IMG/VR virus record: IMGVR_UViG_3300020183_000404
Coordinates: 1-26,101 of that record
From: a virus
Length of the DNA: 26,101 bases
Strand: one strand, 5' to 3'
The notes beneath the pieces were generated by a model, which did not search any database, was not told where the DNA came from, and saw only the letters and a list, made by a program, of their open reading frames with translations. Below are positions 4,684 through 26,063 of this stretch, piece after piece (position 1 is the stretch's first letter; the number at the start of each line of letters is the position of its first letter). The position numbers were made by a program, and so were the translations under genes.

Positions 4684-4690
4684 TATTTAG
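4684..4690 (-). promoter_or_regulatory. Late-promoter-like CTAAATA overlapping stop of 58-residue gene, upstream of gp13
   Basis: The minus strand reads CTAAATA; its TAA is the stop codon of the 58-residue gene. This variant matches the relaxed late promoter form described for cyanophages. It ends 18 bases before the gp13 ATG, close to the spacing seen for gp8. Confidence 0.5.
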
Positions 4691-4863: not shown

Positions 4864-5080
4864 TTGCAATGTCCTTTAATAATTGTTTTACTTCTTCTAT
4901 TGATGATTTAAGTTCAAGCAATTCAGTTTCTATTTTATCAACTCTTAACTTTTCCTCTTCTTTTTTTCTTTTTGCAATACTATAGTGGTCTGAAGAAATT
5001 TTATCTGTATTAATGATGGCATTTGTTTTTAAATCTCGTAAAAGGTTTAAATGACCTTCAACTTTAGCATAATAGTTCAT
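4853..5080 (-). CDS. Small coiled-coil protein (75 residues), unknown function
   Basis: I do not recognise a family. The protein is short and highly charged; residues about 33-72 (AKRKKEEEKLRVDKIETELL then ELKSSIEEVKQLLKDI) have a heptad-like spacing of I/L/V that predicts a coiled coil. There is no signal peptide or membrane segment. Its ATG overlaps the stop of the 2131-residue gene as TAATG, and its 3' end overlaps the next small gene by 11 bases, so it is embedded in a tightly coupled cluster. That packing and the position just upstream of gp13 argue that it is a true gene. A role as an assembly helper or minor virion protein is possible, but nothing in the sequence proves it. Confidence 0.72.
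   Translation of the reverse strand: MNYYAKVEGHLNLLRDLKTNAIINTDKISSDHYSIAKRKKEEEKLRVDKIETELLELKSSIEEVKQLLKDIANES
4872..4875 (-). promoter_or_regulatory. Shine-Dalgarno AGGA deciding start of 58-residue gene
   Basis: The minus strand reads AAAGGACATTGCAAATG. AGGA stands 8 bases before the ATG at 4863 but only 2 before the in-frame TTG at 4869, so the ATG is favoured. Most other genes in this window have no recognisable Shine-Dalgarno sequence. Confidence 0.65.
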
Positions 5081-8000: not shown

Positions 8001-11000
8001 CTGATGTGTCATAGTTATTAAACTCATCTACAAAAAATCCTGATTTAAATCTATTCAATCCATTTTGATCAGTTATTAAAAGATTTTGTGTTGATTGCTC
8101 AAGTAAAGAAAGTGTTGTGTAAAACTCTAAGTTTGAAACTCTATTGTCTATATCTCTCAAGTCAGACATAGTATATCTCTTATGATCAGATAAAATAATT
8201 TTTACATCTTCTTTAATATTATAAACATAAGCATTACTAAAAATAGTTGCGACATCCAAAACTTCATTTGAGATTAGGGGAGCAATTGGTATTTCGCTTG
8301 GATCTCCAAATACAATATTAAAGACTTTATCTTTTGATAAAGTTAATTTATCTGTTCTTGGCAAATAGAAGTCATAGTCAAATATGAAATTTTCATCAGG
8401 GGATAAAATCTGAGAAGTATTATTTGAAGATGTTTCAAAATTTCTTGATGTAAAATCAAATGGACTTTTTGTAGATGCTGAATAATTAGAAACTCTTGGT
8501 CTAATATCTATAACATCACTATTTCTAATATTATTAAATGTTGGAATTATCCCTTTAATTAAAGTTGATGGATAACTATTGACAGTAATTAAATCTCCAT
8601 AGTCATTTGAATCATATGTAAAGTTATCATAAAATACTGTTAATCTTCCTGCAGGTTCTTTTGCATTTTGAATTTTAACTAATCTACTAAAATCATAAAA
8701 ATGGGTTCTTTGTCCATTGTCTAGTATAAATTGCTCTACAATATTTTTATCTCCAGAAGTAACTGAAGATACTGTTGCTGAATATTCACTCTCAGAAAAA
8801 GATACTTGTTCTCCAACAAAGAAAGGAGTATCATTTTTATTAATCAAATAAAGTTCTGATGAGGATTTTTTCTGAGCATACACAGCAACAGCACCAGAAG
8901 TTGTTCCAATAACCAATTCCCCAATAATTAAATCATCAACTACATTATTTTCGCTATTGAGACCTGAAACAGTGATATGAGGAATTGCTGGATCTGCTGT
9001 GGTAGATGATTCAAATACACCATGAACTTTAAGTACATCAGGAATATTTAAACTAATTTGATCATCTTCCACCCTTGTTCCATATATTGATGTATAAGCA
9101 AGACCTGCATTTGGAGGAGTGCTGTACTTAGTATTTGCAATTGTCAGTGAATTACACTTTGAAAGTTGTTTAAATTTACTAGTTACATTAGACTTAATTT
9201 GAGTGGTAACAACTCTACATGGACCTGCCGTTGAAGAAAGACCTGTAAATTGAGCAGTTTTTCCACCATCTGACAAAGTAAAAGTTGCATTGTCTAAATT
9301 TTCAATACTATTATTACTATTAACTACAATATATCTTTTTGCATCATAAGTTGAATATACATAATCACTTCCAGATAAACTTGGAAGAGTTAAAGTTGTA
9401 GAAGACTTTGCAACAGATTTATAAAAAACTTTTGTGTAAATACTAGAGTTTGTTAAATTTATATTAGAAATATTTGAATGATTTAATCTTGCAGTTAATG
9501 AAGAATCATCTGTCTGTCTAATTTCAGACTTAATTATAGAGACGTTTTGAAGAGATGTAGTAACACCTAAGGTTCCCGCACAAACACCAAATACAACTGA
9601 TACAGGAACAATTGTTATACTATTTTTAGTAGCAGAAACTACAGTAATCCTTGCATAAATATCAGATCCAATTCCTGCTTGAGTGTATTTAATGACATCA
9701 GTTGCTTTAAGATTTGATGCAAATGATGATCCATTATTTGACTTAATTGTTCCAATTCCAGCATTTACAGTTAAAGAAAATGGTCCCACTAAAGCAGTTT
9801 CTTTTGAAAGAACTGTATCTGCAGTAAAGTTTCCATTAACAACTGATTTAACATCTTCTATACTGTAATTTGTAAATGTTCCTACAGAAACAGTAGATCC
9901 AATTCCATTTACTATTAGAGATTCATTTTTAACAAAATTTCCAGAAGTTTGGTATAAAGTTAATGTTTGTCCAGAACTACCTTGAACAAAAGCAGTTGCT
10001 CCACTATTGTTTCCTTTAAGATAATCTCCAACTACTATTGATGAAAGAACAGAGTCTGAAACAATATTACTGTAAGTTTGAATATCAAATAAATTTAAAT
10101 TAAATTGACTTGTTGAATTATTATATGAAGTAATATATGAAGATATATCGTATACCCTAGCTACGCCAATTTGAGATCCTGCAGTGGATCCATTTAAAAG
10201 TCTTTGATTATAAAGATTAATAGATTGATCAGTGGTCAATCCTATATTGGGAACATTTGTTGTGTTATTAATTCTTATCAAGTTTCCAGTATAGAAAGAT
10301 GATGAAGATGATTCAACATGCTTTGTTGTTCTTGGTTTGGGAAAACTTAATAGTTCAGTATTTGTTGGTACTTCATAACCTTTGATATATGCTTTTCCAG
10401 GAGAAACTTTAATAACTCCATTATTTTCTGATGTAACTATATCATTAAATGTATTTTTTCCTTCAGAATATAATCCTCCATTTCCAAGATTGTCGTTTAA
10501 AGATTCTAGTGCCTCTGCATTGAAAGGAAGAACATAATAATTTCCAGATTCATCATATGTTCTTCTTGCTAAAATATCAGCAATATAAGAACTATCTGTT
10601 TGATTCTTAATTTGAATTAAGACGCCATTTTCAACTCTAAAAAGTTCAATAAAATTTTCATCATTAAAATCATTTAATTTTTTTGCTATTAAGGAAAGAG
10701 ATATTTTTAATCTGTCTGCACCAGGAGCAGCATAATTTGAAAATCCTTGTGCATTATCATATAGTGATGAATCTTGATTTGCGTTTACAATTTCTTCTAA
10801 AATGTTCAATCCAACTCTATATGAAGGAGTATTTGTATATTGATCTAAAATTAAAGTGTCCTGAGAAACATTTACAAAAAACCCTCTTACAAAATATATT
10901 CCATTGTCAATTTTAGCAGCAGATCCAACTGAAGTTGACTTTCTGTTTGTGGGTGCAATTGTTTTTGCTACTGATGATCCACTTAAGATTGAATTATTTG

Positions 11001-11475
11001 AAAGATTTATATTTTGATTTACTACAAGTTCTTCTCCATTTGAAAAAGTTGTTGAAGTAAAACTTGAAGATGAAGATGATTGATACTTTATATAGAAAGT
11101 AGTTGTTCCTCTTACAGAAGATTCTTTTGAAAGAACTTTTTCAACTTTAGCAGTTACATTTGAAATTTTACCAGTAAGAGTTAATCCTACAAGGTTATTG
11201 AAATAACTTTCTACATTAATGCCATTAAAAGTGCTTTCGACCTCCACTGCATAATATGATGAATCATATGCAAATCCACCAGGAACTACAACAGAATTTT
11301 TCTTAAAGAAAGCCCCTCCAAGTTTTTCAATTTGATTTTGTAAAATTGTTTGAAGAGTGGTTAACTCTCTTGTTTGTACTGTGACTCCTGGTTTAAAAAG
11401 AACTTTATAAAAATTCTTTGAGTCACTAAAATCATCATAATATGGATTCGTATTTAAATTAGTACTTTGGGGCAT
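5080..11475 (-). CDS. DUF4815-like giant baseplate/tail fibre protein (2131 residues)
   Basis: The N-terminus (MPQSTNLNTNPYYDDFSDSK, then FYKVLFKPGVTVQTRELTTL and QTILQNQIEKLG) matches the opening of DUF4815-type proteins found in marine T4-like phages, which are virion proteins of unknown detailed role. A second conserved block lies near residues 935-1000 (LTVFYDNFTYDSNDYGDLIT, VIDIRPRVSNYS, SPFDFTSRNF). Modules of the form GD-x-[IL]-x-G-x-x-SGA occur at about 478-535 and 847-901. The region 1690-1815 carries HPNHGMYGLNNRVEITGVES then VQISNEIIRYEN and VTRGVYGTSPNSHN. The C-terminal 100 residues (VLFSAYRNAASDIRVLYKI, FPGYDNLDVNGNVI, SPLIKELRVLAIR) are also typical. The gene occupies the place of T4 genes 9-12, none of which I can find, so it may supply the fibre-connector or short-fibre role. 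It starts 4 bases after the gp8 stop. A host-contact or wedge-periphery role is inferred. Confidence 0.78.
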   Translation of the reverse strand: MPQSTNLNTNPYYDDFSDSKNFYKVLFKPGVTVQTRELTTLQTILQNQIEKLGGAFFKKNSVVVPGGFAYDSSYYAVEVESTFNGINVESYFNNLVGLTLTGKISNVTAKVEKVLSKESSVRGTTTFYIKYQSSSSSSFTSTTFSNGEELVVNQNINLSNNSILSGSSVAKTIAPTNRKSTSVGSAAKIDNGIYFVRGFFVNVSQDTLILDQYTNTPSYRVGLNILEEIVNANQDSSLYDNAQGFSNYAAPGADRLKISLSLIAKKLNDFNDENFIELFRVENGVLIQIKNQTDSSYIADILARRTYDESGNYYVLPFNAEALESLNDNLGNGGLYSEGKNTFNDIVTSENNGVIKVSPGKAYIKGYEVPTNTELLSFPKPRTTKHVESSSSSFYTGNLIRINNTTNVPNIGLTTDQSINLYNQRLLNGSTAGSQIGVARVYDISSYITSYNNSTSQFNLNLFDIQTYSNIVSDSVLSSIVVGDYLKGNNSGATAFVQGSSGQTLTLYQTSGNFVKNESLIVNGIGSTVSVGTFTNYSIEDVKSVVNGNFTADTVLSKETALVGPFSLTVNAGIGTIKSNNGSSFASNLKATDVIKYTQAGIGSDIYARITVVSATKNSITIVPVSVVFGVCAGTLGVTTSLQNVSIIKSEIRQTDDSSLTARLNHSNISNINLTNSSIYTKVFYKSVAKSSTTLTLPSLSGSDYVYSTYDAKRYIVVNSNNSIENLDNATFTLSDGGKTAQFTGLSSTAGPCRVVTTQIKSNVTSKFKQLSKCNSLTIANTKYSTPPNAGLAYTSIYGTRVEDDQISLNIPDVLKVHGVFESSTTADPAIPHITVSGLNSENNVVDDLIIGELVIGTTSGAVAVYAQKKSSSELYLINKNDTPFFVGEQVSFSESEYSATVSSVTSGDKNIVEQFILDNGQRTHFYDFSRLVKIQNAKEPAGRLTVFYDNFTYDSNDYGDLITVNSYPSTLIKGIIPTFNNIRNSDVIDIRPRVSNYSASTKSPFDFTSRNFETSSNNTSQILSPDENFIFDYDFYLPRTDKLTLSKDKVFNIVFGDPSEIPIAPLISNEVLDVATIFSNAYVYNIKEDVKIILSDHKRYTMSDLRDIDNRVSNLEFYTTLSLLEQSTQNLLITDQNGLNRFKSGFFVDEFNNYDTSDENSVDYNALIENKTLSSPVREEKINLSLFYTDDYTSTSAIDLANTNCDNLKITGKQLTLNYSEVVASKQPFASKVVNVNPFNIITWAGVLELSPNTDRWTVSIEKNKRIAGSRKDRTTVTSKNIPYIRSRNIRFTSVKLKPNTRFKLLFDKKDLTTNILKSTVFPKFLEIKNVVGLFQPGETVKCLNFKGEVSCIFRICSPNHKHGSITSPSTVFVKNPYNISVGISTQYGVQSTFLNVDVESLSREDISGFWGKIKKENKLVGSTSRATATVSDIRLITNEEGALIGSIWIDEDDKFSTGKSLVDLVLNDPTSKVPGEIADSSSSAIFTTEGTEITTTKITYYDPLAQTFVVEDDNGIIPTSVDVYFYTKDSNIPIELQIREVSLGTPGGPDKVIVNKILSASEINTSSNASVKTRFTFDTLKRLEPNEYAVVLISDSNEYQVWVSELGSEDISTVNLPAINKVFITKQPSLGTLFKSQNGTTWVPSPLEDLKFTLKKAKFITTGGTARFYNTTEELVSPENELPTNPITAISTSGSPNSGRHILVFHPNHGMYGLNNRVEITGVESDVLPEKLTVDYAITDSGAISVASTAIFATFEGSPVSNINPGYVQISNEIIRYENVNDNNQLLDVTRGVYGTSPNSHNVNDLVYKYEFNNVSLNKINTTHTILTNPTPTIDSYHIQVSAGSSFTQTKTAGGDNVYASKNKQFSEVQLNSDSITTFNNTQTLASIRSISSRSVGGTETPYVDNATESIGIGSVTKFDTVRMVASRQNESQYLNSTNFVGQRSFTLELNLNTTDVNVSPIINLEQNFITTKVYNVNQPIGISSYASDNRVNASSDDPHSFIHLSNRVDLDQSADSLKVLFSAYRNAASDIRVLYKIFTNDSPDEDQVWQLFPGYDNLDVNGNVINSANNDGRSDGNVRSSLNNEFLDYTYSIDNLTAFTGFQIKIVGTSTNQAYSPLIKELRVLAIR

Positions 11476-11479
11476 TTTT

Positions 11480-13036
11480 TTAGAATTCTAAAATGATTTT
11501 AATGTCTTCTCTTTGTTGCGATGACCTAGTTACTGAAGCCCTATTATCAACATATACAATGTCACCACTCTTTGTATTTATGTCTGGATTTGAAAGACCT
11601 GCAGTAAATGTTTGACCAAGATAATATGTAGTTGCCCCAATAGTAACCTTATCTCCAAAAAAACTAGTGTCTATTGTGTAAGTATTGTTTCCAATTTTAA
11701 TTTGACTTGAATCAAATGCTTTTAACTTATAATTTGCAGAAGTTTGAATTCCTGAAATGCTATTTGCAAATTGATAATCAATCTGCAAATCAGAGTCCAC
11801 TGCATATGTATCAATGTGATTTGTTCTTGGTTGGATATATTTTAAAACCTTTGTAGTAGAATCAAAACTAATTAAGTTCCCAATTGCTCCAGTGTTATTT
11901 TGTGTTATAAGAGAATCATAAGATTCTTCAGAAGCATTTTCATTTAGTTTTAATGCATAAATTCCAGATCCAGTATTTTGAGAAAATGTTTGAATGCTAC
12001 CATTTGATTCTATGTTTTTTATAATTCCAATTCTTGAAAATTGATTTCCTACAATAAAGTCTGGATTTGTTGAACTATTTTCAATTCTACTGTAGACTAA
12101 TGCTCTGAATGCACCAAGTTCGTCATAAATGTTTTTTCCATGCCCACCTGGAGGTGGTATAATAACATTAAATACAGTTTTAGTTCCACTAGTTGGTTGT
12201 AATATAGAATTTAAATCTAATGTTGCAAAAGTATAATCCTTCCCACCATCAGTCACAGTTACTTTAATTGGTTTCCCCTGCTCATTAAATGCTATAGAAG
12301 CTTTAGCATCAGAGGATCCATCTGTAGATGTTCCATCTCCTCTAATAGGAACATTTGTAAGAGTTCCAAAATATGGATAAGAAGCGTTGTTATTTTCTAT
12401 AATAATCGTTTCTATCTTACCATTAACAGAGGCATCTCTTACTCTTGAAATTTCTGCATTCGCTGTGGTAGTCCAATTATTTGGAACACTAATAAAATTA
12501 GTAGAATCAAATTTTAAAACATCTGATGGATTTAAGGTGTACAAATATTTCCAAGCATATCCATCTGATTCCAATCTTGGGGCTAAATCTGTATGAAGTG
12601 GTTCTTGAGTTGATACTGGAATTTCTCTATTATTTCCTGGAGTTGAATTATTGTTGATGCAAATGTAAACTCTATATTCACTATTCATGACATAGAAGGA
12701 AGAATCATATAATCTAGTAGAAGAAGTTATTGGTGTTGTATTATATAAACTATAATCATGTCTATACATTTCATATTTTTTTCCTTTTGACCAAACATTT
12801 TTTGGAATAACTCTGATTACATCTGAAGATGTAATTTGTTTGACACCTAAAATATTGTCTCTATAAGAATTTAAATGAAAATAATTGTCTATTGGATTTG
12901 GTCTAGTAGAATCCCAACTTGGATAAAATGAAGCAGCATTTGGGAATCCTACAAATGTATAATAACTTTCGTTAGAAACGCTATTAACAAAATTTGAACA
13001 ATTGACTATTCTTAATTTATCTGTTACTACAGCCAT
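11480..13036 (-). CDS. 8: Baseplate wedge protein gp8, enlarged
   Basis: The 518-residue protein shows T4 gp8 hallmarks at both ends. The N-terminal half has NILGVKQITSSDVIRVIPKN (T4: VLGVTDM...VKVLP...VIPRRDW), then at about residues 153-170 SDGYAWKYLYTLNPSDV (T4: GDGYVWEYLFEIPPDV). The C-terminus, GDIVYVDNRASVTRSSQQRE followed by DIKIILEF, aligns with the T4 ending GEMIYMENRPPI...TEEINILFTF. T4 gp8 has 334 residues, so about 180 are added in the middle; part of this, near 230-272, holds a VTVTDGGKDYTFATL motif like the GG-x-[DN]Y repeats in neighbouring genes. By family knowledge gp8 dimerises in the wedge and binds gp7 and gp10. A late-promoter-like octamer overlapping the preceding stop lies 19 bases upstream; no Shine-Dalgarno sequence is seen. 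The gene ends in a palindromic GAATTC/TAA, four bases before the next ATG. Confidence 0.88.
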   Translation of the reverse strand: MAVVTDKLRIVNCSNFVNSVSNESYYTFVGFPNAASFYPSWDSTRPNPIDNYFHLNSYRDNILGVKQITSSDVIRVIPKNVWSKGKKYEMYRHDYSLYNTTPITSSTRLYDSSFYVMNSEYRVYICINNNSTPGNNREIPVSTQEPLHTDLAPRLESDGYAWKYLYTLNPSDVLKFDSTNFISVPNNWTTTANAEISRVRDASVNGKIETIIIENNNASYPYFGTLTNVPIRGDGTSTDGSSDAKASIAFNEQGKPIKVTVTDGGKDYTFATLDLNSILQPTSGTKTVFNVIIPPPGGHGKNIYDELGAFRALVYSRIENSSTNPDFIVGNQFSRIGIIKNIESNGSIQTFSQNTGSGIYALKLNENASEESYDSLITQNNTGAIGNLISFDSTTKVLKYIQPRTNHIDTYAVDSDLQIDYQFANSISGIQTSANYKLKAFDSSQIKIGNNTYTIDTSFFGDKVTIGATTYYLGQTFTAGLSNPDINTKSGDIVYVDNRASVTRSSQQREDIKIILEF

Positions 13037-13055: not shown

Positions 13056-13063
13056 TATTTATT
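13056..13063 (-). promoter_or_regulatory. Late-promoter-like octamer overlapping stop of 808-residue gene, upstream of gp8
   Basis: The minus strand reads TAATAAATA at 13064-13056 and the first TAA is the stop codon of the 808-residue gene. The octamer ends 19 bases before the gp8 ATG, compatible with a late promoter giving a short leader. Confidence 0.58.
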
Positions 13064-15488
13064 AGGATTTTCTGTAGAAAGAAAGTAAAGACGTATTAAC
13101 ACCAACTGGAGATGATGAATAGTCAGTTGATCCTATACCGACAATGTTGGAATCAATTGATACTATGGTTACTCCAGTTCCAACATATTCACCTTCAATA
13201 TAATCACCTACAATAATATTAGTAGTATTAACACCAATAAAATTAGTAGTAATACCAGTGAATGTTCCTACATAATTTGCTATATTTGTAAATAAGGTCA
13301 TACCAGAATTTTGCTCATATCTAGATTTACTTATAAAAGTTCCATCTATTATTTTATCTACACTTTGTGGAGTCCAATCTACTGCTCTAATTTGAGAAGA
13401 ATTGTCAGAAATTCCAACATCAGAATATATGTTTGTTTTTAAAACATCTGAACTCATAAATTCCTTTATAATTCTTTGTTTTTGTTGAACTGGGGGAGGA
13501 TTGTAAATATCTTGTGAGATTTGCAACAAATCTCCTTCTTTCAATTTGGAAATGCTTTGTGCAACAAAAGTATCTCCATAGTAACCTTTATATAAGTATA
13601 TTTTGACATTACTTCCTGAAGGAATTCCCTCTGTAAAAGTTATTATAGATCCATTGATAAATGTATAAGAAGTATCTGGTGGTTGTAAAATGTCATTGAC
13701 AAAAACTAAAAGATTATACCTTAATTCAACTTCATATTCCAAATCAGTGTCTAAACTAATTCTTTGTTGATTTTTAGTTAGGTTGAATGTTTTTCTTACT
13801 CCATTAACTTTATCACTTAAATCATCTAACTTTTCTAATATTCCAATATTCCAAGAATTAAAAGTGTCTTTTGTAGTTTCATCAATTTTTATGTGTATTT
13901 TATCGTTAATTGTTTGAGATCCATTTCCAATGGTATTTTCTGGAACTAAAATTTCACCAACTTTGTAATTATATCCTCTATTTGTAAATTTAAAGTTGTT
14001 TACATTACCATAAAAATCAGTATTAAATGAAACTGAAGCACCAATTCCAGAAACTGATCCTGTTAAAGGAACATCATTAAAGGAAGTTGAGGATTGATAA
14101 TTTGATCCTGACGTTGTTCCATAAGAGACAATAATACCACCTCTTGGATATTCTTTCACATTTACATCATATGTTTTGCCTACAAATCCAGTACTTCCAA
14201 CTCCAACAAAATTTATAAAAGTACTTGAACCACTTTCAACAAATGAAAATGATTCATCAGATCCAGGATATTGAAAAATATTATTAATTAATAATACTCC
14301 ATTGTCACTTTTTATACCAACTGTGTTTATACCTGAAGATTTTAACTCAAATGAACTTGTTATTCCTGTGAATTGTTCAGAAATATCATCAAAAACAGAA
14401 TTTCCATCATAGTTTGATTTTAGAAATACTCTTCCATTAAAACTATTTGTTTCACTTGGATAATAATATGTAATTTTAAAATTAGTAATACCAAGTCCAT
14501 TTTTAGATTGATTGCTAAAAATAATTTTATTCCCTAAAATTGCATTGGCATAAGATGATGCAAAACTAAAGTTATTATTATTATTTTTTATTAAATAATA
14601 TATTCCTTGTATATCAAGTTCTTTTGGAGGATTTTCCCATAATATAAACACTTGATCCCCAGTAACTAATTTATCAGAGATTAAGTTAAAACTATGAGAA
14701 TTATATATTATATCTGATGGTAATACTCTATAACTAATTTTATTTGATTCTAAAGGTGGATCATCAAAATAAATTATATCTTTAATTATATTGTAATTTC
14801 CTCCCAAAACTTGTGCATAACTTCCTATTAAAGATGAAGTAAATGGCACTAATTCTGTTCCTAAAACAGATGCTCCTCTAGAAATTCCTATTACTTTAGT
14901 ATCATAGTTAATAGAGGCAACTCTAACTATTTCTTCATTAACTTTTAAACAAGTCCCCAATTTAATATTTTGTAAACTAGCAACAGTTAAAGAAGAATTT
15001 GTGTAATTTAAAATAGAAACTGTTGAACCAATTGAAATTGGAGATTGAATAATATCGTTAATTTGAATTAAACATTTTGAGTTCTGTTTAAAACACTCAA
15101 ATGAATGTTGAGTTCCTATTCCAAGAGATGTAATATTTACATATTGATTTGATGTTGCATATGTAGATCCTAAAGATATTCTAATATTATCTTTATCAAC
15201 TACTATTGGATAAACAACAGATGGAAAAGAAGTTATTCCAAAAGCTCCTGGACTTGTACTTGCAATACCAACGGCAGAATTACCTGAGTCATATGAATAT
15301 TTTAAAGGTTCACCAGTTTTAAAAAAATGATTTGAAATATAAATTGAATCTTCACTTAAATTAACTATACTTGAACTTTCTGAATTAAAAACCTTATAGA
15401 AAATTGGATCGTTTTTATGCTTCAATGGAAAAGAAGTTCTTCCATAAATTGAAGGAGTATATATTGTACCAATTTCGTTAATAGGCAT
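13062..15488 (-). CDS. Modular tail/baseplate structural protein (808 residues)
   Basis: I do not recognise a named T4 homologue. The protein sits between the giant structural gene and gp8 and is built from the same modules as its neighbours. An H-x-F-x-T-G-E module occurs at about residues 50-110 (SNHFFKTGEPLKYSYDSGNS), a second version near 267-310 (KLVTGDQVF then GIYYLIKNNNNNFSFA), and an [ND]EEIVR...ISRGASVLGT module at about 176-224. The C-terminal third (about 550-715) carries VNDILQPPDTSYTF, ITFTEGIPSGSNVKIYLYKG and a later SSQIRAVDWTPQSVDKIIDG segment, motifs I know from structural proteins of marine T4-like phages. It is acidic and beta-rich with no signal peptide or transmembrane segment. 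It probably joins the wedge or carries a fibre. The start ATG lacks a Shine-Dalgarno sequence, and a late-promoter-like octamer lies only 9 bases upstream, so the mRNA could be nearly leaderless. Confidence 0.72.
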   Translation of the reverse strand: MPINEIGTIYTPSIYGRTSFPLKHKNDPIFYKVFNSESSSIVNLSEDSIYISNHFFKTGEPLKYSYDSGNSAVGIASTSPGAFGITSFPSVVYPIVVDKDNIRISLGSTYATSNQYVNITSLGIGTQHSFECFKQNSKCLIQINDIIQSPISIGSTVSILNYTNSSLTVASLQNIKLGTCLKVNEEIVRVASINYDTKVIGISRGASVLGTELVPFTSSLIGSYAQVLGGNYNIIKDIIYFDDPPLESNKISYRVLPSDIIYNSHSFNLISDKLVTGDQVFILWENPPKELDIQGIYYLIKNNNNNFSFASSYANAILGNKIIFSNQSKNGLGITNFKITYYYPSETNSFNGRVFLKSNYDGNSVFDDISEQFTGITSSFELKSSGINTVGIKSDNGVLLINNIFQYPGSDESFSFVESGSSTFINFVGVGSTGFVGKTYDVNVKEYPRGGIIVSYGTTSGSNYQSSTSFNDVPLTGSVSGIGASVSFNTDFYGNVNNFKFTNRGYNYKVGEILVPENTIGNGSQTINDKIHIKIDETTKDTFNSWNIGILEKLDDLSDKVNGVRKTFNLTKNQQRISLDTDLEYEVELRYNLLVFVNDILQPPDTSYTFINGSIITFTEGIPSGSNVKIYLYKGYYGDTFVAQSISKLKEGDLLQISQDIYNPPPVQQKQRIIKEFMSSDVLKTNIYSDVGISDNSSQIRAVDWTPQSVDKIIDGTFISKSRYEQNSGMTLFTNIANYVGTFTGITTNFIGVNTTNIIVGDYIEGEYVGTGVTIVSIDSNIVGIGSTDYSSSPVGVNTSLLSFYRKS

Positions 15489-15497: not shown

Positions 15498-15505
15498 TAT
15501 TTATT
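15498..15505 (-). promoter_or_regulatory. Late-promoter-like octamer overlapping stop of giant gene, upstream of 808-residue gene
   Basis: The minus strand reads TAATAAATA at 15506-15498, where the first TAA is the stop codon of the giant gene. Only 9 bases separate the octamer from the next ATG, so a transcript from it would have almost no leader. That shortness makes it less certain than the others. Confidence 0.45.
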
Positions 15506-18500
15506 ATTGATTAGGTGCTAGTATACTAGATTCATAAATGGTAATTTTATAATTTGCAGAAGTAATGGGATTGAAGAATAATGTGTAATTATTATTTGCA
15601 ATACTATAATAAGATTCAAAATTCAAATCATTTAAATCTACAGTACCATTCATATCATAAATTATGTTATTTAAATAATCTTGATTGTGTAATGAATTTA
15701 TTTGTACTAATGATCTTTGAGTACTAACTCCTATTGTTTGTGTAATGTCTAAGATATATTTTGTATATCCATAAGTTGCAGAAACTGTTGATATTCCTGT
15801 TGAATTAGAATTTGTAGTTATTTGAGAACTTGAGAATTTAGTAAAGGTTTTAATTATACTGTCATTACCAGCATAAGTATTTGTTAATAGTTTCAAGTTT
15901 GCACTTAAAGTTACTGCAACTCCAACAACTTCAGTGTATACGAATTCAATATTTGAACCATTTTTGTAAATATTCACCTCTCCCAAATTATTTAAAGTAT
16001 TTTCTGAATAAGCACTCACAAGTAAATCAGATTGTGTATTTACAAATGAACATTCAAAAGATTTTTGAATGCTATTAGTTACAGAGGAAATTCCAACAAT
16101 TAATGATCCAGAATTGCAATCCAGACTTGAAATGCTGTAAAATACTGTTGATCCTATTCCTGCAGCATACTGCTCACAAGTTTCTACATTTTTAACATAT
16201 CCAAAAGAAGTAGTTGCTATTCCAACAGTGTTTGGAGCCATTTCTTTTACTGCTTTTATATCTACAGTAATAAATGGATTTGTTGGAGTAAAATTTAAAA
16301 CAATTTCAGAGTTATTTGTAGAATTAATTTCAGCAGTAAATACACCTAAAAATGGATTTAATTTTCCAAACTCAAAGTAATTTGAATAAGATGTTAAGTT
16401 AATAATATCTTTATCTCTTGTAACAAATAATTCAAATATTTCTGGGGTTACAAATTGTCCAAAGAATGAATCAGTTCCTGTTAAATAAAATTGATATTTT
16501 AAAACTGTTGGAAAACTTCTATCCAAAACAATAGATGGGATAGTTGGTTGATTATTGAACAAATTTGAAATATCATCTATTGATAATACTCTATTATTTG
16601 TGAATTTTAAACTTTGTCCAAGTTTTAACCTTAAAAATCTTAAGTATTGAGTATGTTCTCCATTATTGTCCTCCAAATCTATTTCATTAACTAAATCATA
16701 ATCGCTAATGCGATTTACATTTCCATATGAATCTAAAATAATATTAAGAGTTGATTCCTCCATTGGTAGAATGACAGATTCTGTTGCAATTGATTCTACT
16801 GACAAATCACTAAATTTTTTATATCCAAGTATGTGTGAAGTGTCTGATACTGGAGATTCCCATTCAGAATATGATTTTTTACTTTTTAAAGAATATGCAA
16901 ACTTTTGATAATAATCATTATCTGAAAGTTTTTGGAAATTTGATGATAAGAAACTTCTATTTTCTGTTCCACCCAAAATTTCAGATACAGAATAATCAGA
17001 AGTAAAAGTAGAATTAAAATTAGTTATTTCATTTACAGTTCCTTTAGAATTTGAAGATTTTCCTATGATAACATCATTGGCAGAAATATTTTTTGGATCT
17101 TTGACCTTTATGAGATTAGTTAATGGATTATTATTGACGTTATTAGTTATTTTAGCAGTATTAACAGTTTCATTATTATGAAAAGAATTTTGTTTAAAAA
17201 CTGCTTCAATTTTTGGTATGTATGAAAATGGAGTTACATAAGCTTCATATGTATCTTGACTATCATAAGATCCTGGATTTACATTTAATTCATATCTAAT
17301 TATAGCAGAATCTTGAGACCCAAATGCAGGGTTTACAAAAGATACTGTAAATGGTTGATATCCATAATCACTAGAATTAAACCCATTCCCATTAAAAACA
17401 ATTCCTTCTACAAAAATTTCATCACCAACTTCAACTGGTAATGGGTTTGATGTGGTAAATCCTGCAGGGGGAGTTTTTAATGTTAGAGTAACTGTATAGG
17501 GGGCACTAGAACCAGTTACAGAAACATTTATAATATTAAACCCATTGGTATTATCAGTGACTATTACTTTACTGTCACTAGATTTCAATCCATTTCCAGG
17601 ATTGAGAATTTGAACATTTTCAATGGAATTATTTTTTAACGTAGCAGATGCTGAAAAATCAACAATAATTCTTTTATCTCTTGAATTGTATAATTTTATT
17701 TGTGGTTCAAAAATGTAATTTTGTCCACCATTTATAACATTCAAAGAATCCACAGTATAATTTTCAATAAGTTTTAGAGCAGAAAATACTTTTGATTCTG
17801 GTCTTAGAGTTTTGTCTGATGGGCAAACATATTTAGTATTAATTACTTTGACTTTTTCAATTTTTCCTATGGTTTCACTATCTGCAAACAAGTTGCATCC
17901 AGTTCCATAATTACTAATAACAGACTTTATTTTAGGTAATTTTTTATATCTAGATCCTTTAGAAGTTATTTCAACATTAGAAATAGGGCCCAATACACCT
18001 TCACTTAAAACTGAATATGACAAAGATGACAAATCTGATTTATATAGAGATCTCTCAGGAGTATCATCTAAATTGACTGTAAATGTATAATCAGTTGAAG
18101 ATACTACAGAAGTTTTAGTATTATACTTACTTTCACTAATTTTTAATTGATTATAGTTATCAACATCTATGTCAATATTAGAATCTGATAAATTGTAAAA
18201 AAGATTTCTGGGAGTGTTATTATTGATGTTTAAAATTAGTGAAGTTGAAGTTTTAATTATTTCATTGGATTTAAGGTTTCCAGAATATGGATTTAAGAAA
18301 TTTTTATCCTCATATAAATCAAAAGTATTTTTATTTAGAGGAAGATTAGATAAATCAAAAGTTACAACATCATTTGCATACACATCTATTTTTGGATTAG
18401 TTTGAGAATTTATCAATACTCTATTATTTGAATAAGTTACTGTAAAAGTAACAGCTACTCCAGATTTAACATTTAACTTAATTACATCTCCTACAGAAAG

Positions 18501-21500
18501 ATTATGAGTGGAGGCAGTTGAAACTAGACAATTATTTTTTGTAATATTTCCAGTAATAATATTTTTATTTGTGGTAAAATTATGTAAATTTCCAGTTCCT
18601 GTTGAAGTATAAGTTAAAATAGTATTTTGATTTGAAAGATTTGATCTACTAGTTACTATTCCAATAATATCTGAATCGAGTTTTAGTGCAAAAAGATTAG
18701 AAAACGTATTCAAATTTCCATAATTTGTAATTATTGTTGATGTTCCTGGAGTGTAAATAATTTCATCTCCAGTATTAAATTTATTATTTGGTAAATAAAT
18801 CCCTCCTGGTGGAACATATTTTGTGTATGAGTTTCCTAAACCTAAAGGATAAATTGATAAAGTGTTGCCATATCCAACTCCAATTGTTGTTCCAATAGAA
18901 ACACTTTGAGTAGAATCAAAATAATAAGATTCATTCTTTTCAGAATAAGAAGGAGTAAAGTCTTGAGCAACAAATGTAAATTTATTTGGAAGTAAGTAAA
19001 CAGGATCAAGTGCTAAGTGTGATGTTGAATTTGATGGCCTTAAGATATTAATGAGATTATTTTTATAATCCAACCCAATAATCTTTACAATTTCCCCATC
19101 AATAGACCATTGAGAATCTATATCAAAAGAATAAATGGATCCTGCTACTTGAATAGATGTGACAATACCAGTGATTGTTGATGGTCCAAGATTGGATATT
19201 AACTTTGTAGTTATATCAGAAATAGTGATTTTTCTAAATCCTTCAATTGGTTTAAATGAAGTTGTTGAAATTCCTGATATATTAATGTAAGAGTTGTTTT
19301 TAAATGAATGATAAGTTGAAGCAATTCCCACCAAAGATTTCCCATCAGATGTAAAAGATACTCCAGAAAAATTTGAACTTTGAGATTGTATGCTAGAAAT
19401 TCCAACTCCAGAAACTTCAGAAACTTTTGCTAATGCTCCAAATCCAGAAGTTCCTTCATCATCAAACAATATAGAATCATTTACTTGATAATCAAACCCT
19501 CCATCTACTATTTTAATTTTATCAATAAATCCTGTTGAAGATTGCTCTATTAAAATATCTTTATCATTTGCATTTTTTGATAGTTGGAAATATTCATATT
19601 TTGAGTTTGAATCTTCAACTCTATATGGAGAAGTCCATTTAACGATATTTAAATTGTTAAAATTTAAACTTTGATTAATTTTTAAATTAAAATTATCCTC
19701 TACTGGTTCGCAGTTGTATTGTGGTCCTATAGTATATGGGAATTTTGGAGAATTGTTATCATCAAATGTACAGAAATATGCATATATCCCTTGTGGATAT
19801 TCTGGGGTTATGCAAAATCTTCCATTGTACTTATCCAGAGTTCCTGAGCCTTCAAAAACATATTCTTCTACTAATTTAAATTCACTATTAATTACACTAA
19901 TATAAGAGTATCCACTCTTCATTCTAGATATTCCACCAGTTCCATTTGAATTTGTATATCCATATGGACCATAAATTGGGCAACCATCATAGGACCATCC
20001 AACTATTGGAGAATGTGATGTTGGTGTAGATGGTATATTTAAAAAAGTTTTTAACTTAGAATTTAAAAAATATACACCAAAAGTATTTTTATCAAGGGAG
20101 TAATTTTTTCCAAATATTTTACCATCTTCAATGTTAATTAATTCATATCTTTCAACATCATTTATTGTCCAAGATTTTAAGTTTGCTTTTAATTTGAGAC
20201 CAGTTCCTATTGGATTGATATTAATTTTGGTATTATTTTCACTATAATTAACTCCACCATTTACAACTTTAACACTGACAAAAGAACCATTTGATATAAC
20301 TGGAGTTAATTTAGCACCAAATCCATCTCCTACCACAACAAGATCTAAAGAGTTAAAATATCCCGATCCAAAATTTTTAACAATTACTTGTTTAATTTTA
20401 CCATCTACAATTAATGGTTGTAAAACTGCACCCTCACCTTCAATAACCCTTATGGTTGGACTATTTTCATAATTGATGATATTTTTTTCGCCAAAACTAT
20501 CCATAGGGACAGACAAACTATTTGGTCTCTTTTCTACCAAAGCACTTGTCACAGAACCGCTAATTGTTGGTAAAATGGAAGCTTCATATCCAACAGTAGA
20601 TGAAACCCCACTTATTGTCAATGACCCAAAAATTTCAACTCTTACTGGAGAATATTCAAGGAAATATATGCTATATGGTTCTGCTTGACTAAAGTTAAAA
20701 TAGTTTGTAGAATTTTTTGTTTCAGAAAGTCTAAATTGATCATCATCAATTTTTGTGATATAATAATAGTTTGTTGTGGATAATCCAATAGATCCTCCAT
20801 TGTATCCAGGTATTGGGTTCCAACTATAAACAACTTCATCGTCAGTTGAAAATCCATGATTTTTTATTGTAATGATATTATCTTGATCATCAACATCTGA
20901 ATAGACAAAAGATACTTTTTTATATTCAAAATCTTTTTCATTTTGTATAACAGTTACTTCATCAATTGCCTTTCTAGGAATATCTGCAACAAAACTTTGA
21001 AGACCTCCTCCATATGTTCTTAATTTAATCAAATTAGTTTTAGACAGAGCATCACTTCTATTAAATGCAAGAGACATTGAAGTTCCTGCTCCAATACTTA
21101 CAGCATAATAAACTGAATCATTAATTAAATTTCCATCAGATACATTAGTACCAATGCCAATTGGAATTGAAGCATTGGTTTTGTAAATGACAGGTTCTCC
21201 AGTTTCAAATCTATGCTTTGATGTGAAATTGAATTTGTTATTTACTGTGTCAATAACAGTATCCTTAGTTGTTGCATTGAAGTCAACTTGATTTATCACA
21301 TTTTTCATCTTAACGTCTGCCACAACAGAAAAATTATTTCCTCCTAAAATCTTTACTGTTGGAGTTTCAATATAATCAAATCCAGGATCTGTGACTAAAA
21401 GATTAATTAATTTCCCTTTCAGTTGTGGAATTATTTTTGTATACAATGATTCAGATTCATCATATACCACTTTAAATTGTGGTGGATTTAGTATGTTATA

Positions 21501-23783
21501 ATAGTTACCTGGATTTAATACTGTTATTGAATCTACAGGTCCATAATAAATTTTGTCAAATGATTTATAATTTCTAAGTTCTACTCCATTTACAAATACT
21601 CCAACATTTCCTGGAAAAGTATTGATCTTACTTTGTGATGGAGATATTGTTTTTGGAAATTTTTTAAATAATTTACTTGATCCTATTGCTCTATTATATT
21701 CTGATGATGGAACTAAATTGACACTAGAAAGTCTTCCTGTTTCATCTCCTAAAATATTATATTCAATGAGTGGAATAAAAGAAGATAATCCTACGTTTTC
21801 TTTTGATTCGCATAATTTAATAGTATTATTGCTATCTTTTCTTATAAAATAATAATTTCCAGTATTTATACCAATGTTATTGTTAAATCCTGGTGATGTT
21901 GAGTAATTAGACACAACAACTTCATCACCATTTTTAAATTGATGGTTTCTAAGTGGGGATGAAATTAACAAATAAGTATCTGGTGCAGCATTGAGGGGAG
22001 GGGGTGGAGTAGTAAATGACCCATTATTTAATAAAGGGTTGACTTCATATTCTGGCAATCCATTTGAGGTCAAATAATAAAAATTAGAATCTAAGTAAGA
22101 ATCTTGAACATTTGCACTTAAGTTTAAATTTTGATATGGAGATTTCTTTAAAGTTCTTTTAAATAAAATTATTTTTCCAAGTAAGAAATCCAAACTTTGG
22201 GATAATTGTGATACTGATTGTAAAACTGATGTGATTGGAATTGAAAATTCTTTAGAATTGAAAACATTAACAGAAAGATTAATTGCTATTAATTGATCAG
22301 TATTTGCAATATACATATCAACTATATCACCTGTTTTCAAATAATGAGGATACTCGCATAAAGCAGACCCATTAGATATTGAAAAAGCTTGTTTTTGATT
22401 ATTTCTAATCTGAGTAGTTATGGTCCTTACTGCTTCTCCACAAGATACAGTTATTGGATGATTGTAGACTAAAGATTGTAAAAGTTTAGATTCTTCAGTT
22501 GATCCTAAATGATCTATTTGAATTGGATCACCATCATAGGAATAAATTGCAGTGGAAGAAGTTAACCCAGAAAGAACATTATTTAATTTAAATTTTACCA
22601 AATTGCCATTAGTTTTTTCATAAGCATAAATGTAATGATTAGAAAAAACTTTAGATTTTTTAAGTATATTACTGGTAACTCCTGAACAATTTAAAAATTG
22701 ATTATTAGTTTTATCTGTGTATGAAATTGACAATTCATCAATTTCCAAAATACCAGTGTTTTCAAATCCAACTGTAGAATCAACCGTTATTGTTTTGGAA
22801 CCAACTCCAATATTTTCAATAACATATGTTTTGGGAGTAGTGGCAAAAGTACCATTAATACTTCCCTTTGGGTTTAAGTTATTTGAATATCCAGAAAAAA
22901 GTTGTATTTTATAGAATTTTTCCTCATTAGAAGTAAATGCTTCTACATTATAAATTGACCCATTGGCAGATTCAATATTATACTCAGGAAACTTATCTTG
23001 ATATAAAGTCTGTTCTCTAACATCAAATGGATTTCCACTTACTAAATTACAAACAAAAGTTTCTACTACTCTCCATTTATCATCAGATGGGGTAAAGCAG
23101 AAGTCATCTGGTTTTATAATTTTCACATCTTCTGCATACAATACTTTAAATAAAATTTTGAAAGCTTCATCAGTTCCCTTTGTCTGATAAAATGTTTTTG
23201 CTTTACTGATAAAATTTTGTGGATTTATTTTGAGATCAAACTCAAGTTCTTCAAATCCTGGAGTAAATTGATATTTGATTTTTTTGAAGAACTCTTTTAA
23301 AAAAAGGTTGCTTAAATTAATTACTGTTGATTCAGAAGTATGAGAATCAGTTTCTGTTTGAGAAAAAACTAAAAATTCTGGATTATTTTCTTGAGATAAA
23401 GATGATATTCCACTAAATCCACGAATACATCCAGTAAATGTAGTAGAAGTAATTCCAGTATAAGTAATGATTTCATTATCAATTTTTAATAATCCATATT
23501 CTTGTGGCCAACCTGCAGTTGAACTTACATTAATGGAGTCATCAAAAAAATCTACTTCAGATGTTAATGTAGTTTCTGAAATTAAATTTGTGGTATCAAA
23601 ACTATCTAAATTTTTATAAGATATTAAATTTTCTGCTATGTCTACAGTAGAACCTTGAACTTCCTGGGAAATATAATATTGCTTTAAAAATTCTACAAAG
23701 TTTGGATTCTCTGAAAGAATAAACTCTGGAATTTGATTTTGAACTACGTCACTAATTTTAACTACTTTTTTTTCTTGATTCAT
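15504..23783 (-). CDS. Giant modular tail/baseplate structural protein with YHYH-like domain (gene 7 position)
   Basis: This 2759-residue protein follows gp6, in the slot of T4 gene 7 (1032 residues), but I see no gp7 sequence signature, so only its place is shared. Residues 1-250 look like a conserved anchor (QIPEFILSENPNFVEFLKQY, then YQTKGTDEAFKILFKVLYAE near residues 215-235). The rest is a string of beta-rich modules: a membrane-fusion-unlike DNEIITYT...CIRGFSG module at 95-140; H-x-F-x-T-G-[DE] modules near 478, 613, 856, 975 and 1666; and GG-x-[DN]Y or GxGY repeats throughout. A YHYH-like domain occupies about 1235-1360 (HSPIVGWSYDGCPIYGPYGY, then NGRFCITPEYPQGIYAYFCT and FPYTIGPQYN). 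A PPPP linker lies near residue 594. The C-terminal 350 residues seem to hold three related beta-sandwich domains. No signal peptide or membrane segment is visible. Likely a baseplate or fibre structural protein; exact role unknown. Confidence 0.75.
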   Translation of the reverse strand: MNQEKKVVKISDVVQNQIPEFILSENPNFVEFLKQYYISQEVQGSTVDIAENLISYKNLDSFDTTNLISETTLTSEVDFFDDSINVSSTAGWPQEYGLLKIDNEIITYTGITSTTFTGCIRGFSGISSLSQENNPEFLVFSQTETDSHTSESTVINLSNLFLKEFFKKIKYQFTPGFEELEFDLKINPQNFISKAKTFYQTKGTDEAFKILFKVLYAEDVKIIKPDDFCFTPSDDKWRVVETFVCNLVSGNPFDVREQTLYQDKFPEYNIESANGSIYNVEAFTSNEEKFYKIQLFSGYSNNLNPKGSINGTFATTPKTYVIENIGVGSKTITVDSTVGFENTGILEIDELSISYTDKTNNQFLNCSGVTSNILKKSKVFSNHYIYAYEKTNGNLVKFKLNNVLSGLTSSTAIYSYDGDPIQIDHLGSTEESKLLQSLVYNHPITVSCGEAVRTITTQIRNNQKQAFSISNGSALCEYPHYLKTGDIVDMYIANTDQLIAINLSVNVFNSKEFSIPITSVLQSVSQLSQSLDFLLGKIILFKRTLKKSPYQNLNLSANVQDSYLDSNFYYLTSNGLPEYEVNPLLNNGSFTTPPPPLNAAPDTYLLISSPLRNHQFKNGDEVVVSNYSTSPGFNNNIGINTGNYYFIRKDSNNTIKLCESKENVGLSSFIPLIEYNILGDETGRLSSVNLVPSSEYNRAIGSSKLFKKFPKTISPSQSKINTFPGNVGVFVNGVELRNYKSFDKIYYGPVDSITVLNPGNYYNILNPPQFKVVYDESESLYTKIIPQLKGKLINLLVTDPGFDYIETPTVKILGGNNFSVVADVKMKNVINQVDFNATTKDTVIDTVNNKFNFTSKHRFETGEPVIYKTNASIPIGIGTNVSDGNLINDSVYYAVSIGAGTSMSLAFNRSDALSKTNLIKLRTYGGGLQSFVADIPRKAIDEVTVIQNEKDFEYKKVSFVYSDVDDQDNIITIKNHGFSTDDEVVYSWNPIPGYNGGSIGLSTTNYYYITKIDDDQFRLSETKNSTNYFNFSQAEPYSIYFLEYSPVRVEIFGSLTISGVSSTVGYEASILPTISGSVTSALVEKRPNSLSVPMDSFGEKNIINYENSPTIRVIEGEGAVLQPLIVDGKIKQVIVKNFGSGYFNSLDLVVVGDGFGAKLTPVISNGSFVSVKVVNGGVNYSENNTKININPIGTGLKLKANLKSWTINDVERYELINIEDGKIFGKNYSLDKNTFGVYFLNSKLKTFLNIPSTPTSHSPIVGWSYDGCPIYGPYGYTNSNGTGGISRMKSGYSYISVINSEFKLVEEYVFEGSGTLDKYNGRFCITPEYPQGIYAYFCTFDDNNSPKFPYTIGPQYNCEPVEDNFNLKINQSLNFNNLNIVKWTSPYRVEDSNSKYEYFQLSKNANDKDILIEQSSTGFIDKIKIVDGGFDYQVNDSILFDDEGTSGFGALAKVSEVSGVGISSIQSQSSNFSGVSFTSDGKSLVGIASTYHSFKNNSYINISGISTTSFKPIEGFRKITISDITTKLISNLGPSTITGIVTSIQVAGSIYSFDIDSQWSIDGEIVKIIGLDYKNNLINILRPSNSTSHLALDPVYLLPNKFTFVAQDFTPSYSEKNESYYFDSTQSVSIGTTIGVGYGNTLSIYPLGLGNSYTKYVPPGGIYLPNNKFNTGDEIIYTPGTSTIITNYGNLNTFSNLFALKLDSDIIGIVTSRSNLSNQNTILTYTSTGTGNLHNFTTNKNIITGNITKNNCLVSTASTHNLSVGDVIKLNVKSGVAVTFTVTYSNNRVLINSQTNPKIDVYANDVVTFDLSNLPLNKNTFDLYEDKNFLNPYSGNLKSNEIIKTSTSLILNINNNTPRNLFYNLSDSNIDIDVDNYNQLKISESKYNTKTSVVSSTDYTFTVNLDDTPERSLYKSDLSSLSYSVLSEGVLGPISNVEITSKGSRYKKLPKIKSVISNYGTGCNLFADSETIGKIEKVKVINTKYVCPSDKTLRPESKVFSALKLIENYTVDSLNVINGGQNYIFEPQIKLYNSRDKRIIVDFSASATLKNNSIENVQILNPGNGLKSSDSKVIVTDNTNGFNIINVSVTGSSAPYTVTLTLKTPPAGFTTSNPLPVEVGDEIFVEGIVFNGNGFNSSDYGYQPFTVSFVNPAFGSQDSAIIRYELNVNPGSYDSQDTYEAYVTPFSYIPKIEAVFKQNSFHNNETVNTAKITNNVNNNPLTNLIKVKDPKNISANDVIIGKSSNSKGTVNEITNFNSTFTSDYSVSEILGGTENRSFLSSNFQKLSDNDYYQKFAYSLKSKKSYSEWESPVSDTSHILGYKKFSDLSVESIATESVILPMEESTLNIILDSYGNVNRISDYDLVNEIDLEDNNGEHTQYLRFLRLKLGQSLKFTNNRVLSIDDISNLFNNQPTIPSIVLDRSFPTVLKYQFYLTGTDSFFGQFVTPEIFELFVTRDKDIINLTSYSNYFEFGKLNPFLGVFTAEINSTNNSEIVLNFTPTNPFITVDIKAVKEMAPNTVGIATTSFGYVKNVETCEQYAAGIGSTVFYSISSLDCNSGSLIVGISSVTNSIQKSFECSFVNTQSDLLVSAYSENTLNNLGEVNIYKNGSNIEFVYTEVVGVAVTLSANLKLLTNTYAGNDSIIKTFTKFSSSQITTNSNSTGISTVSATYGYTKYILDITQTIGVSTQRSLVQINSLHNQDYLNNIIYDMNGTVDLNDLNFESYYSIANNNYTLFFNPITSANYKITIYESSILAPNQ

Positions 23784-23784: not shown

Positions 23785-25659
23785 TTAATTTCTTATTTTG
23801 GTTCCAAATAGATAACTTGATTCAGGAGTAAATCTACTTCCAGAAGAATTTTCACCAGAAGAAACTATATCTTTTACTAAATCAATTGTACTTTTTCCAA
23901 TATCCAGTTTTAAATAAACTGATTTTTTGGCAACAATGTCATTTGAATATGGTGTTACTTCAACTTCAATGATGTTGTTGGATTTTAATGTAGAAGATAC
24001 ATTTATATTATCTATATTCAAAATTCCATTGACATAATCAATTGAACCTATATTATTAGATTCAACAACAACTTTATCTCCATTTAAAGAAAATAAGAAT
24101 AATTTTCCAGTAGTCATATCTGAATTTGGTACATCTGAAATATAAACTAATTTTGTTATTGACTGAACATAAAATCCTGAAGTGCGAACATTATATCCCT
24201 CTGGATCTACATGAAATCTATTTTCAAAACAAACATAGTAATTTGTAGGTTCATTTAAGATAGTGCCAATATTTCTTCTGATTTTTACTTTTGTAATATT
24301 TGATGTGATTGCAGTGTTTGTTGCATCAATAATTCTCAATGCTTTACTGTACTTAAATCTTCCACCAAATTTATTTAAGTCAGTAGAGTTTGCAAAAGAT
24401 GTTAATGAATTGCTTACTTGTGTTTGTAGATCACTAACAGTCCCAACATAATTTGAATTATAATAAACAGTAGAATCAAGTTCAACATAAACTACATTAA
24501 TGTCAACAAATTCAGGTTTAATACCTGCTACTGAATATTTTTTTAAAGAATTTAAAATAGAATCTTTAGTTGCCTCTGACAAGTAATCAGAATTCTTAGG
24601 CTTTGCTGCAAGAAATACTTTCCCATATTGTGGTGGAGTCAATTCTTCTCCACCATATGCAGTCACTGATTCAATATTTGGATAAATTGAAGGTAAAAGT
24701 GCCTCATAATCATTTGCAGTTACTGCTCTATATTGTGATGCATACAATCTTGGAGCATAATATCTTACAGATTCTGGTGTTTGGATATTATCACCATTTT
24801 GAGCAGAACTATTTGTTACTACAGAACCTGTTAGGGGGTTTGTAATATTATTGTCATTATCTCTTAATGTCCCAGAGAAAGTAAAATTAGATGCTCCATT
24901 ACCTGCTGGACCATTTGTGACTATGTAAGAGACAGTAATTTGACTGCCATTGGTTAATTTTTTACCAAAAACACCATCACCAAAGAAAATTTCATATTTT
25001 TCATCAGAAATTTCTTGAATTAAAAAGATTTGTGATGTAGAATTAATGCCTACAATATTATCTACAGCAACATACTGTTCGCTTGTTCCATTTTCTACAA
25101 CATTTACTCTAATTGTAGAGGTATCTACATAAGGATTTGGGATGATATACTTTTGATTTGGTTGTGAATTATCTACAGTAAAGGTTTTTGTAAGATATGT
25201 TCCCTCATAAATGTCAATCTCAGAAAAAACTGCTTCATTATTTGCTACTCCAACAGTAATATCTTCTGGGATTGAGAAAATGTAACTAGTATTATCTAAT
25301 GATCCAGTGCAGACAATTCCTGATTTAAGAGTGAGTGTTTTTATAAAAGGGTTTAAGTTAGTAGCAATGAAAGAAATATTTGCTTTTGCTGCTCTTCTGG
25401 AGAGGGGTACAAACCCTATGTTCCTTGCAAGAGACACTACGTTCTCTCTGATGGTTGCACTGTCCAGGAATGCCTCATTTGCCACCATATTGGTGTTGTA
25501 GGCAGTCAGATAACTGTTATAGGCAAGTATATCAATCAGTATAGAAAAGTTAGATCCCTCAAAATCAAAGTCGCTAAATGTTGAATTTGCTCTAAGATAA
25601 TCTTTAATAGAGGTTCTAATCTGATCAAAATCAAGATTAGTAAAATCTGTGAATGCCAT
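23785..25659 (-). CDS. 6: Baseplate wedge protein gp6 (baseplate J-like)
   Basis: This 624-residue protein is close in length to T4 gp6 (660) and follows gp25 directly, as expected. The N-terminal segment has the gp6/baseplate J signature: an acidic start (MAFTDFTNLDFDQIRTSIKD), then NTNMVANEAFLDSATIREN and VVSLARNIGFVPLSRRAAKA at about residues 55-95. A second conserved region at about residues 298-345 (YYAPRLYASQYRAVTANDYE, then the GGEELTPPQYGKV segment) is typical of the J-like domain. By family knowledge gp6 forms the continuous ring that joins neighbouring wedges and contacts gp25, gp7 and gp53. The start ATG overlaps the gp25 stop as TAATG, with no Shine-Dalgarno sequence, so coupling to gp25 is likely. 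The gene ends one base before the ATG of the giant gene. Nothing appears truncated or frameshifted. Confidence 0.92.
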   Translation of the reverse strand: MAFTDFTNLDFDQIRTSIKDYLRANSTFSDFDFEGSNFSILIDILAYNSYLTAYNTNMVANEAFLDSATIRENVVSLARNIGFVPLSRRAAKANISFIATNLNPFIKTLTLKSGIVCTGSLDNTSYIFSIPEDITVGVANNEAVFSEIDIYEGTYLTKTFTVDNSQPNQKYIIPNPYVDTSTIRVNVVENGTSEQYVAVDNIVGINSTSQIFLIQEISDEKYEIFFGDGVFGKKLTNGSQITVSYIVTNGPAGNGASNFTFSGTLRDNDNNITNPLTGSVVTNSSAQNGDNIQTPESVRYYAPRLYASQYRAVTANDYEALLPSIYPNIESVTAYGGEELTPPQYGKVFLAAKPKNSDYLSEATKDSILNSLKKYSVAGIKPEFVDINVVYVELDSTVYYNSNYVGTVSDLQTQVSNSLTSFANSTDLNKFGGRFKYSKALRIIDATNTAITSNITKVKIRRNIGTILNEPTNYYVCFENRFHVDPEGYNVRTSGFYVQSITKLVYISDVPNSDMTTGKLFLFSLNGDKVVVESNNIGSIDYVNGILNIDNINVSSTLKSNNIIEVEVTPYSNDIVAKKSVYLKLDIGKSTIDLVKDIVSSGENSSGSRFTPESSYLFGTKIRN

Positions 25660-26063
25660 TAGTATCTGGTTGGTTGTAATATGAAGTTAATTGCCTGTGT
25701 TGGAACAGCAAGTCCAACAATATCATAAGTAATAGTTACATCAAGTTCATTATCTTCAGGAAATAAATCAACATTTACAACTCTAACAACAACTCTTGGT
25801 TCAAAGTTAGAGAGAACAGTCTTAATTTCTTCCTGTAAAGGATCTACAATACCACTATCTGCAAGTTCAAAGAAGTAACTTTCAACTTTTGACCCTAAAA
25901 GTGAGTTAAAAAACCTTTCTCCAACTCTTGTTCTGATTAAATTGACTACAGATCGCTTAATTGCATCTTCATTTGAGAGTGTTCCAATATCATTAGTCAC
26001 AGGATGCCTTAGAAAGGACAAGCTGATATCTTTAAATCCTCTTGAAATATTCTCTAAAGGCAC
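25659..26063 (-). CDS. 25: Baseplate wedge protein gp25 (GPW/gp25 family)
   Basis: This 134-residue protein matches the T4 gp25 family in length (T4 gp25 has 132) and in its conserved core, seen around residues 18-58: RHPVTNDIGTLSNEDAIKRS followed by VVNLIRTRVGERFFNSLLGS. Gp25 is a small lysozyme-fold wedge component that, by family knowledge, binds gp6 and gp53 in the baseplate and helps trigger sheath assembly; it is structural and not an enzyme. The start is a GTG at 26063: an in-frame TAG lies two codons upstream, so no earlier start is possible, and the MPLENISRGFKDISLSF N-terminus fits the family. No Shine-Dalgarno sequence is visible. A late-promoter-like AATAAATA lies about 25 bases upstream, making this the first gene of the block. 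Its TAA overlaps the ATG of gp6 (TAATG), which suggests translational coupling. Identification is firm. Confidence 0.93.
   Translation of the reverse strand: MPLENISRGFKDISLSFLRHPVTNDIGTLSNEDAIKRSVVNLIRTRVGERFFNSLLGSKVESYFFELADSGIVDPLQEEIKTVLSNFEPRVVVRVVNVDLFPEDNELDVTITYDIVGLAVPTQAINFILQPTRY

Follow-up and report, generated by a model that had tools for sequence, protein, structure and literature searches.

YHYH domains (PF14240) in phage structural proteins have already been annotated and published (PMC7824862, PMC7029224). They were proposed to be Zn hydrolases with three His and one Asp conserved, AOO14285.1 being the example given for the zinc-hydrolase prediction, and fusions to concanavalin-like lectins were reported (PMC7824862); the other study grouped them, within the structural operon, with domains for carbohydrate binding and host recognition (PMC7029224). 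In cellular members of the family the domain forms one contiguous unit of a protein of about 400-700 aa, whereas in the phage protein described here it is distributed over three segments of a 2759-aa virion protein. The nearest annotated records are those of the Kyanoviridae (cyanomyoviruses), whose gp7, termed 'baseplate wedge initiator' (S-SM2, P-SSM2, Bellamy; AOO14285.1), is the same gene at the same position and carries a split YHYH domain devoid of the predicted site, at about 30% identity.

The window, i.e. the whole stretch of DNA that was analysed (26,101 nucleotides), makes up the entire 26.1-kb record, which is a virus fragment. Its 2759-aa ORF (15504..23783, minus strand) matched phrog_2885, 'baseplate wedge subunit', at residues 6-1779, and a profile of 23 N-terminal gp7 sequences found T4 gp7 (PDB 5hx2/5iv5) with an E value of 7e-6 over a short stretch, residues 185-216 against T4 727-758. 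The minus-strand order was gp25 - gp6 - 2759-aa ORF - 808-aa ORF - gp8, with a gp25-type baseplate wedge subunit (25659..26063; phrog_261, E 4e-48; gp25 by position, compare S-SM2), the gp6 baseplate wedge (23785..25659; phrog_219, E 6e-193; Pfam Gp6-like_1st), the 808-aa ORF (13062..15488) and a gp8-type baseplate wedge (11480..13036; phrog_438, E 1e-134), all on the minus strand. The same order, gp25-gp6-gp7-gp8, is found in S-SM2, and T4 gp7, a protein of 1032 aa, occupies the same place after gp6. Synteny and the profile match to T4 gp7 thus identify the 2759-aa ORF as gp7 of a T4-like, Kyanoviridae-related myovirus.

Kyanoviridae gp7 often reaches 3500-7300 aa, whereas in the lineage of the window the C-terminal part is a separate gene. 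The 808-aa ORF has its best stretch of phrog_2885 at 3615-3873 and matched, by blastp, residues 2500-3800 of gp7s of 3500-4160 aa; it is the counterpart of the C-terminal region of the longer proteins, so gp7 is encoded here by two genes (2759 + 808 aa) separated by 15 bases, where many relatives have one undivided gene of 3500-7300 aa. More than 10 relatives have a gp7 ORF of comparable length (about 2750-2790 aa). Farther along the same strand (5080-11475), at the VrlC position of S-SM2, lies a protein of 2131 aa that matches DUF4815 and phrog_358 (unknown function).

The only PF14240 match of the window was obtained by hmmscan at gp7 residues 1236-1343 (nt 19755-20078), with an E value of 6e-22 and 79 bits against a family cut-off of 25. 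A sequence-only reading had postulated a YHYH domain inside a giant baseplate-region protein on the basis of three peptides (residues 1257-1276, within 1316-1337, and 1348-1357; nt 19956-20015, 19773-19838 and 19713-19742, respectively) and had suggested this HMM search; both the match and the gp25-gp6-gp7-gp8 context bear the proposal out. The PF14240 match, an alignment of 42 sequences and the AlphaFold core delimit a segment, hereafter c, at residues 1250-1366 (19686..20036, minus strand), with the signatures HSPI.GW.YDG.PIYGP, LDkyNGRFC.TPEYP.G.YAYF and FPY.IG. The order of strands is the same as in the cellular members, and the signatures HSP..DG.P.YG and NGR...P..P.G.YAY are common to both; the GH...YHxH motif and its Asp, in contrast, are present in the cellular members and absent from gp7 of the window.

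The match covers profile positions 72-185 of 193 only, and could be taken for a truncated domain; this reading was rejected because two further segments were found upstream. A query profile built from 29 cellular YHYH domains matched gp7 in collinear pieces, with the N-terminal strands about 500-700 residues before the part detected by Pfam. Segment a comprises residues 552-582 (NLNLSANVQDSYLDSNFYYLTSNGLPEYEVN; 22038..22130, minus strand; hhalign 96.5% to the N-half of cellular YHYH) and contributes the first two strands of the fold. Segment b comprises residues 699-741 (KLFKKFPKTI..NTFPGNVGVFVNGVELRNYKS; 21561..21689, minus strand; hhalign 96.4%). Among 45 chunks taken along gp7 of the window family, only three, which overlap the a and b regions, exceeded a profile-profile probability of 1.3%, the other 42 giving at most this value; the stretch directly before HSPI showed no match to cellular YHYH (0.4%).

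In the window itself HMMER scores the single sequence only marginally, at an i-E of 0.005 for segment a and 0.008 for segment b, as would be expected if these segments were unrelated to YHYH and gp7 possessed a C-terminal half-domain only. The evidence from the relatives makes this alternative very improbable. In the region before segment c of 67 gp7s, 115 weak N-half matches were found in 65 sequences, with two collinear pieces in 39, whereas the control, in which segment c was kept intact and only the preceding part was reversed or locally shuffled, gave 0-3 such matches and no collinear pair. An earlier control with whole proteins reversed or shuffled was dropped as unfair, since sequences without segment c fail the sequence threshold. 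The profile-profile probability of about 96% for both segments also speaks against a half-domain, as does the contiguity of a and b in some gp7-type proteins. This arrangement, which distinguishes gp7 of the syn9/S-RIM14 type from that of the window, was matched in syn9, Syn33 and AOO14285.1 with E values of 4e-17 to 7e-16 (4e-17 for AOO14285.1), the values for gp7-type proteins other than that of the window ranging from 1e-12 to 1e-17. A second YHYH copy in S-BM3 gp7 spans profile positions 9-208 without interruption (E 6e-45). N- and C-terminal halves of PF14240 are thus both present in gp7, discontinuously, and by profile comparison the protein holds a complete YHYH domain in three segments.

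The AlphaFold model of a cellular YHYH member was of high quality (pLDDT 91, pTM 0.90); that of the window segment had a mean pLDDT of 61 and was confident for the core only, the core residues of segment c reaching about 70-92. The strands of the cellular model that follow the metal-site loop pair one to one with the segment c strands of the window model, and the earlier ones correspond to segment a (E25-30, E34-39) and segment b (E62-67, E84-88, E93-95), both insertions falling in loops when secondary structure alone is compared. Together with the profile matches, this correspondence suggests that segments a, b and c may fold together as one domain. The PDB offered no template: the cellular YHYH profile matched no chain among the PDB sequences, T4 gp7 included; the window protein gave chance-level sequence matches only; a Foldseek search with the window and cellular models returned nothing at E <= 0.001; and the PDB copy searched yielded no gp7 structure with a YHYH domain.

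The two insertions showed no match to the cellular domain except at their edges. Insertion 1 (residues 583-698, about 116 residues; 21690..22037, minus strand) is the least conserved stretch of gp7, with an identity to the window of 0.27 against a mean of 0.39. Insertion 2 (residues 742-1249, about 508 residues; 20037..21560, minus strand) consists of beta-rich modules of the GxGY..P.V and HGF..D.V.Y types, and is placed where the cellular members have the metal-site loop. The C-terminal extension of a head-closure-type protein of the window (2457-3833, minus strand; phrog_460) resembles a beta module of insertion 2 (phrog_2885 983-1152, E 2e-11; weak by blastp, E 0.003).

The residues meant in PMC7824862 are probably D118, H123, H131 and H133 of the cellular profile. 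With copies not deduplicated and gaps scored as absent, all four were found in 69 of the 70 cellular rows (the remaining one, L126, being a contig end), in 26 of the 31 copies in viral proteins below 1000 aa and, where the viral protein measures 1000 aa or more, in only 6 of 142 copies. Exceptions to this absence in large viral proteins are L166, L167, L168 and L171, whose giant proteins, with ORFs of up to 4650 aa, combine FG-GAP repeats with a contiguous intact-site YHYH domain. The sequence-only reading had noticed that no literal YHYH precedes HSPI and supposed that a putative metal site had been lost, to be checked by comparing the conserved His and Asp positions with bacterial members. 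That comparison agrees with it: the cellular rows keep the site, and gp7 of the window is devoid of all four ligands. No YHxH tetrapeptide occurs: residues 531-1400 contain no His other than 614, 857, 976 and 1257, and H1257 is the single His of the three domain segments. The name-giving YHxH, the GH and the Asp are missing, the site itself being unaligned in gp7; since this motif is absent, the domain is to be regarded, on its sequence, as a YHYH relative by descent and not as a motif-bearing member.

The three His and one Asp of PMC7824862 are likewise missing from AOO14285.1, the example cited for the prediction, which proved to be a 6198-aa gp7-type protein of S-RIM14 without the site and without Y[HN]xH anywhere. 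A tree of 85 segment-c sequences, based on 127 columns and with many forks open, placed the window in a clade of 22 rows, all without the site (99/96). The site would have been lost at least 2 times as judged from starred branches, with 7 label changes by parsimony, both figures being rough. The loss of the proposed metal site in gp7 is therefore supported.

Could the domain in gp7 still be a metal-dependent hydrolase in the sense of PMC7824862, acting through H1257, D1266 or some other residue? These two residues correspond to profile positions His147 and Asp156, which are kept in nearly all copies, and another activity or metal geometry is conceivable; moreover, some phages encode paralogues with the full site within the same operon, and L219 provides an intact viral copy joined to a Peptidase_S8 domain. 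This explanation is nevertheless considered improbable, with all four predicted ligands missing in the window, a single His in three segments, the ligand-holding stretch no longer recognisable, and the cited example itself lacking both the site and Y[HN]xH. Since the predicted zinc ligands are gone, catalysis has most probably been lost in the gp7 domain, which appears likelier to be a conserved structural component of the tail than an enzyme.

The small phage YHYH proteins (phrog_2576, phrog_25852; AOO14286.1, PTIM40_100) belong to the same family as the gp7 domain and differ from it in being contiguous and in possessing all four predicted ligands, whereas the domain in the window is split and has none of them. 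An intact YHYH gene of 528-592 aa directly follows gp7 in S-SSM4, P-TIM40 and S-RIM14; in the latter it is AOO14286.1, the gene next to AOO14285.1, and its site is intact. S-SSM4 and S-RIM14 also carry a third, degenerate YHYH copy. Neither the window nor related contigs of up to 143 kb yielded a small intact YHYH protein; in these records, and in a more distant one of 194 kb, all of them perhaps fragments, the gp7 copy was the only one. A constant pairing of the gp7 domain with an intact copy was consequently rejected, within the limits set by records that may be incomplete.

Other viral copies vary in architecture. In L178, L189 and L245 two adjacent genes encode YHYH proteins, one (about 595 aa) with the site intact and one (about 613 aa) without it; by eye, the intact copy of L178 has an alpha/beta-hydrolase-like C-terminal part and its site-less neighbour a cupredoxin-like insert, neither of which was reported by Pfam. 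The viral contig L219 encodes (2126-4741, plus strand) an 872-aa protein with a Peptidase_S8 domain followed by the intact YHYH domain. It is tempting, though decidedly speculative, to think of an enzyme/pseudoenzyme pair in baseplates, in which an ancient and widespread dead YHYH scaffold in gp7 would be accompanied, in some phages, by an adjacent intact, baseplate-borne enzyme, possibly docked on its dead relative and acting on the host envelope.

The YHYH domain occurs in 463 phage records and lies at a comparable place in most of the gp7s examined, and the conservation of segment c (0.56) is well above the gp7 mean of 0.39, only the N-terminal 250 residues being similar or higher. These features weigh against the sequence-only proposal of a receptor- or polysaccharide-binding module, for which a variable sequence linked to host range would be anticipated. 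Loss of catalysis with retention of binding is a common evolutionary path, and the old active-site groove might bind a surface polysaccharide of the host without cutting it. The published grouping with carbohydrate-binding and host-recognition domains (PMC7029224) and the lectin fusions (PMC7824862) point in this direction. Set against the strong conservation and the similar position, the absence of any match to a lectin or carbohydrate-binding fold in the Foldseek search of both models against the PDB, and the presence of a separate tail-fibre-type gene in the window (1317-2420), such a binding role seems rather unlikely. A scaffold role is favoured over receptor binding because few parts of gp7 are as conserved as this domain.

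The mechanism that we consider the most plausible, with fair but not high confidence, is that a complete YHYH fold is assembled from three separated segments (about 552-582, 699-741 and 1250-1366) of a T4-like myovirus gp7, that beta-rich virion modules have been inserted in two of its loops, and that the domain, most likely dead after the loss of one Asp and three His predicted to bind zinc, would be retained in the baseplate wedge as a rigid unit for scaffolding or docking. In the literature searched on gp7 or on YHYH in cyanophages, which covered few subscription journals, no description of the split architecture, the loss of the site in gp7 or the intact neighbour was found.

The gp7 protein is common to hundreds of sequenced marine myoviruses and has a large central part without known function. 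The recognition of a complete but split YHYH domain in this part provides domain boundaries for structural work on gp7. Because the predicted zinc site has been lost in gp7, the idea of an envelope-cutting hydrolase in phage YHYH proteins would belong with the small intact paralogues, and it is on these, not on gp7, that it should be tested.
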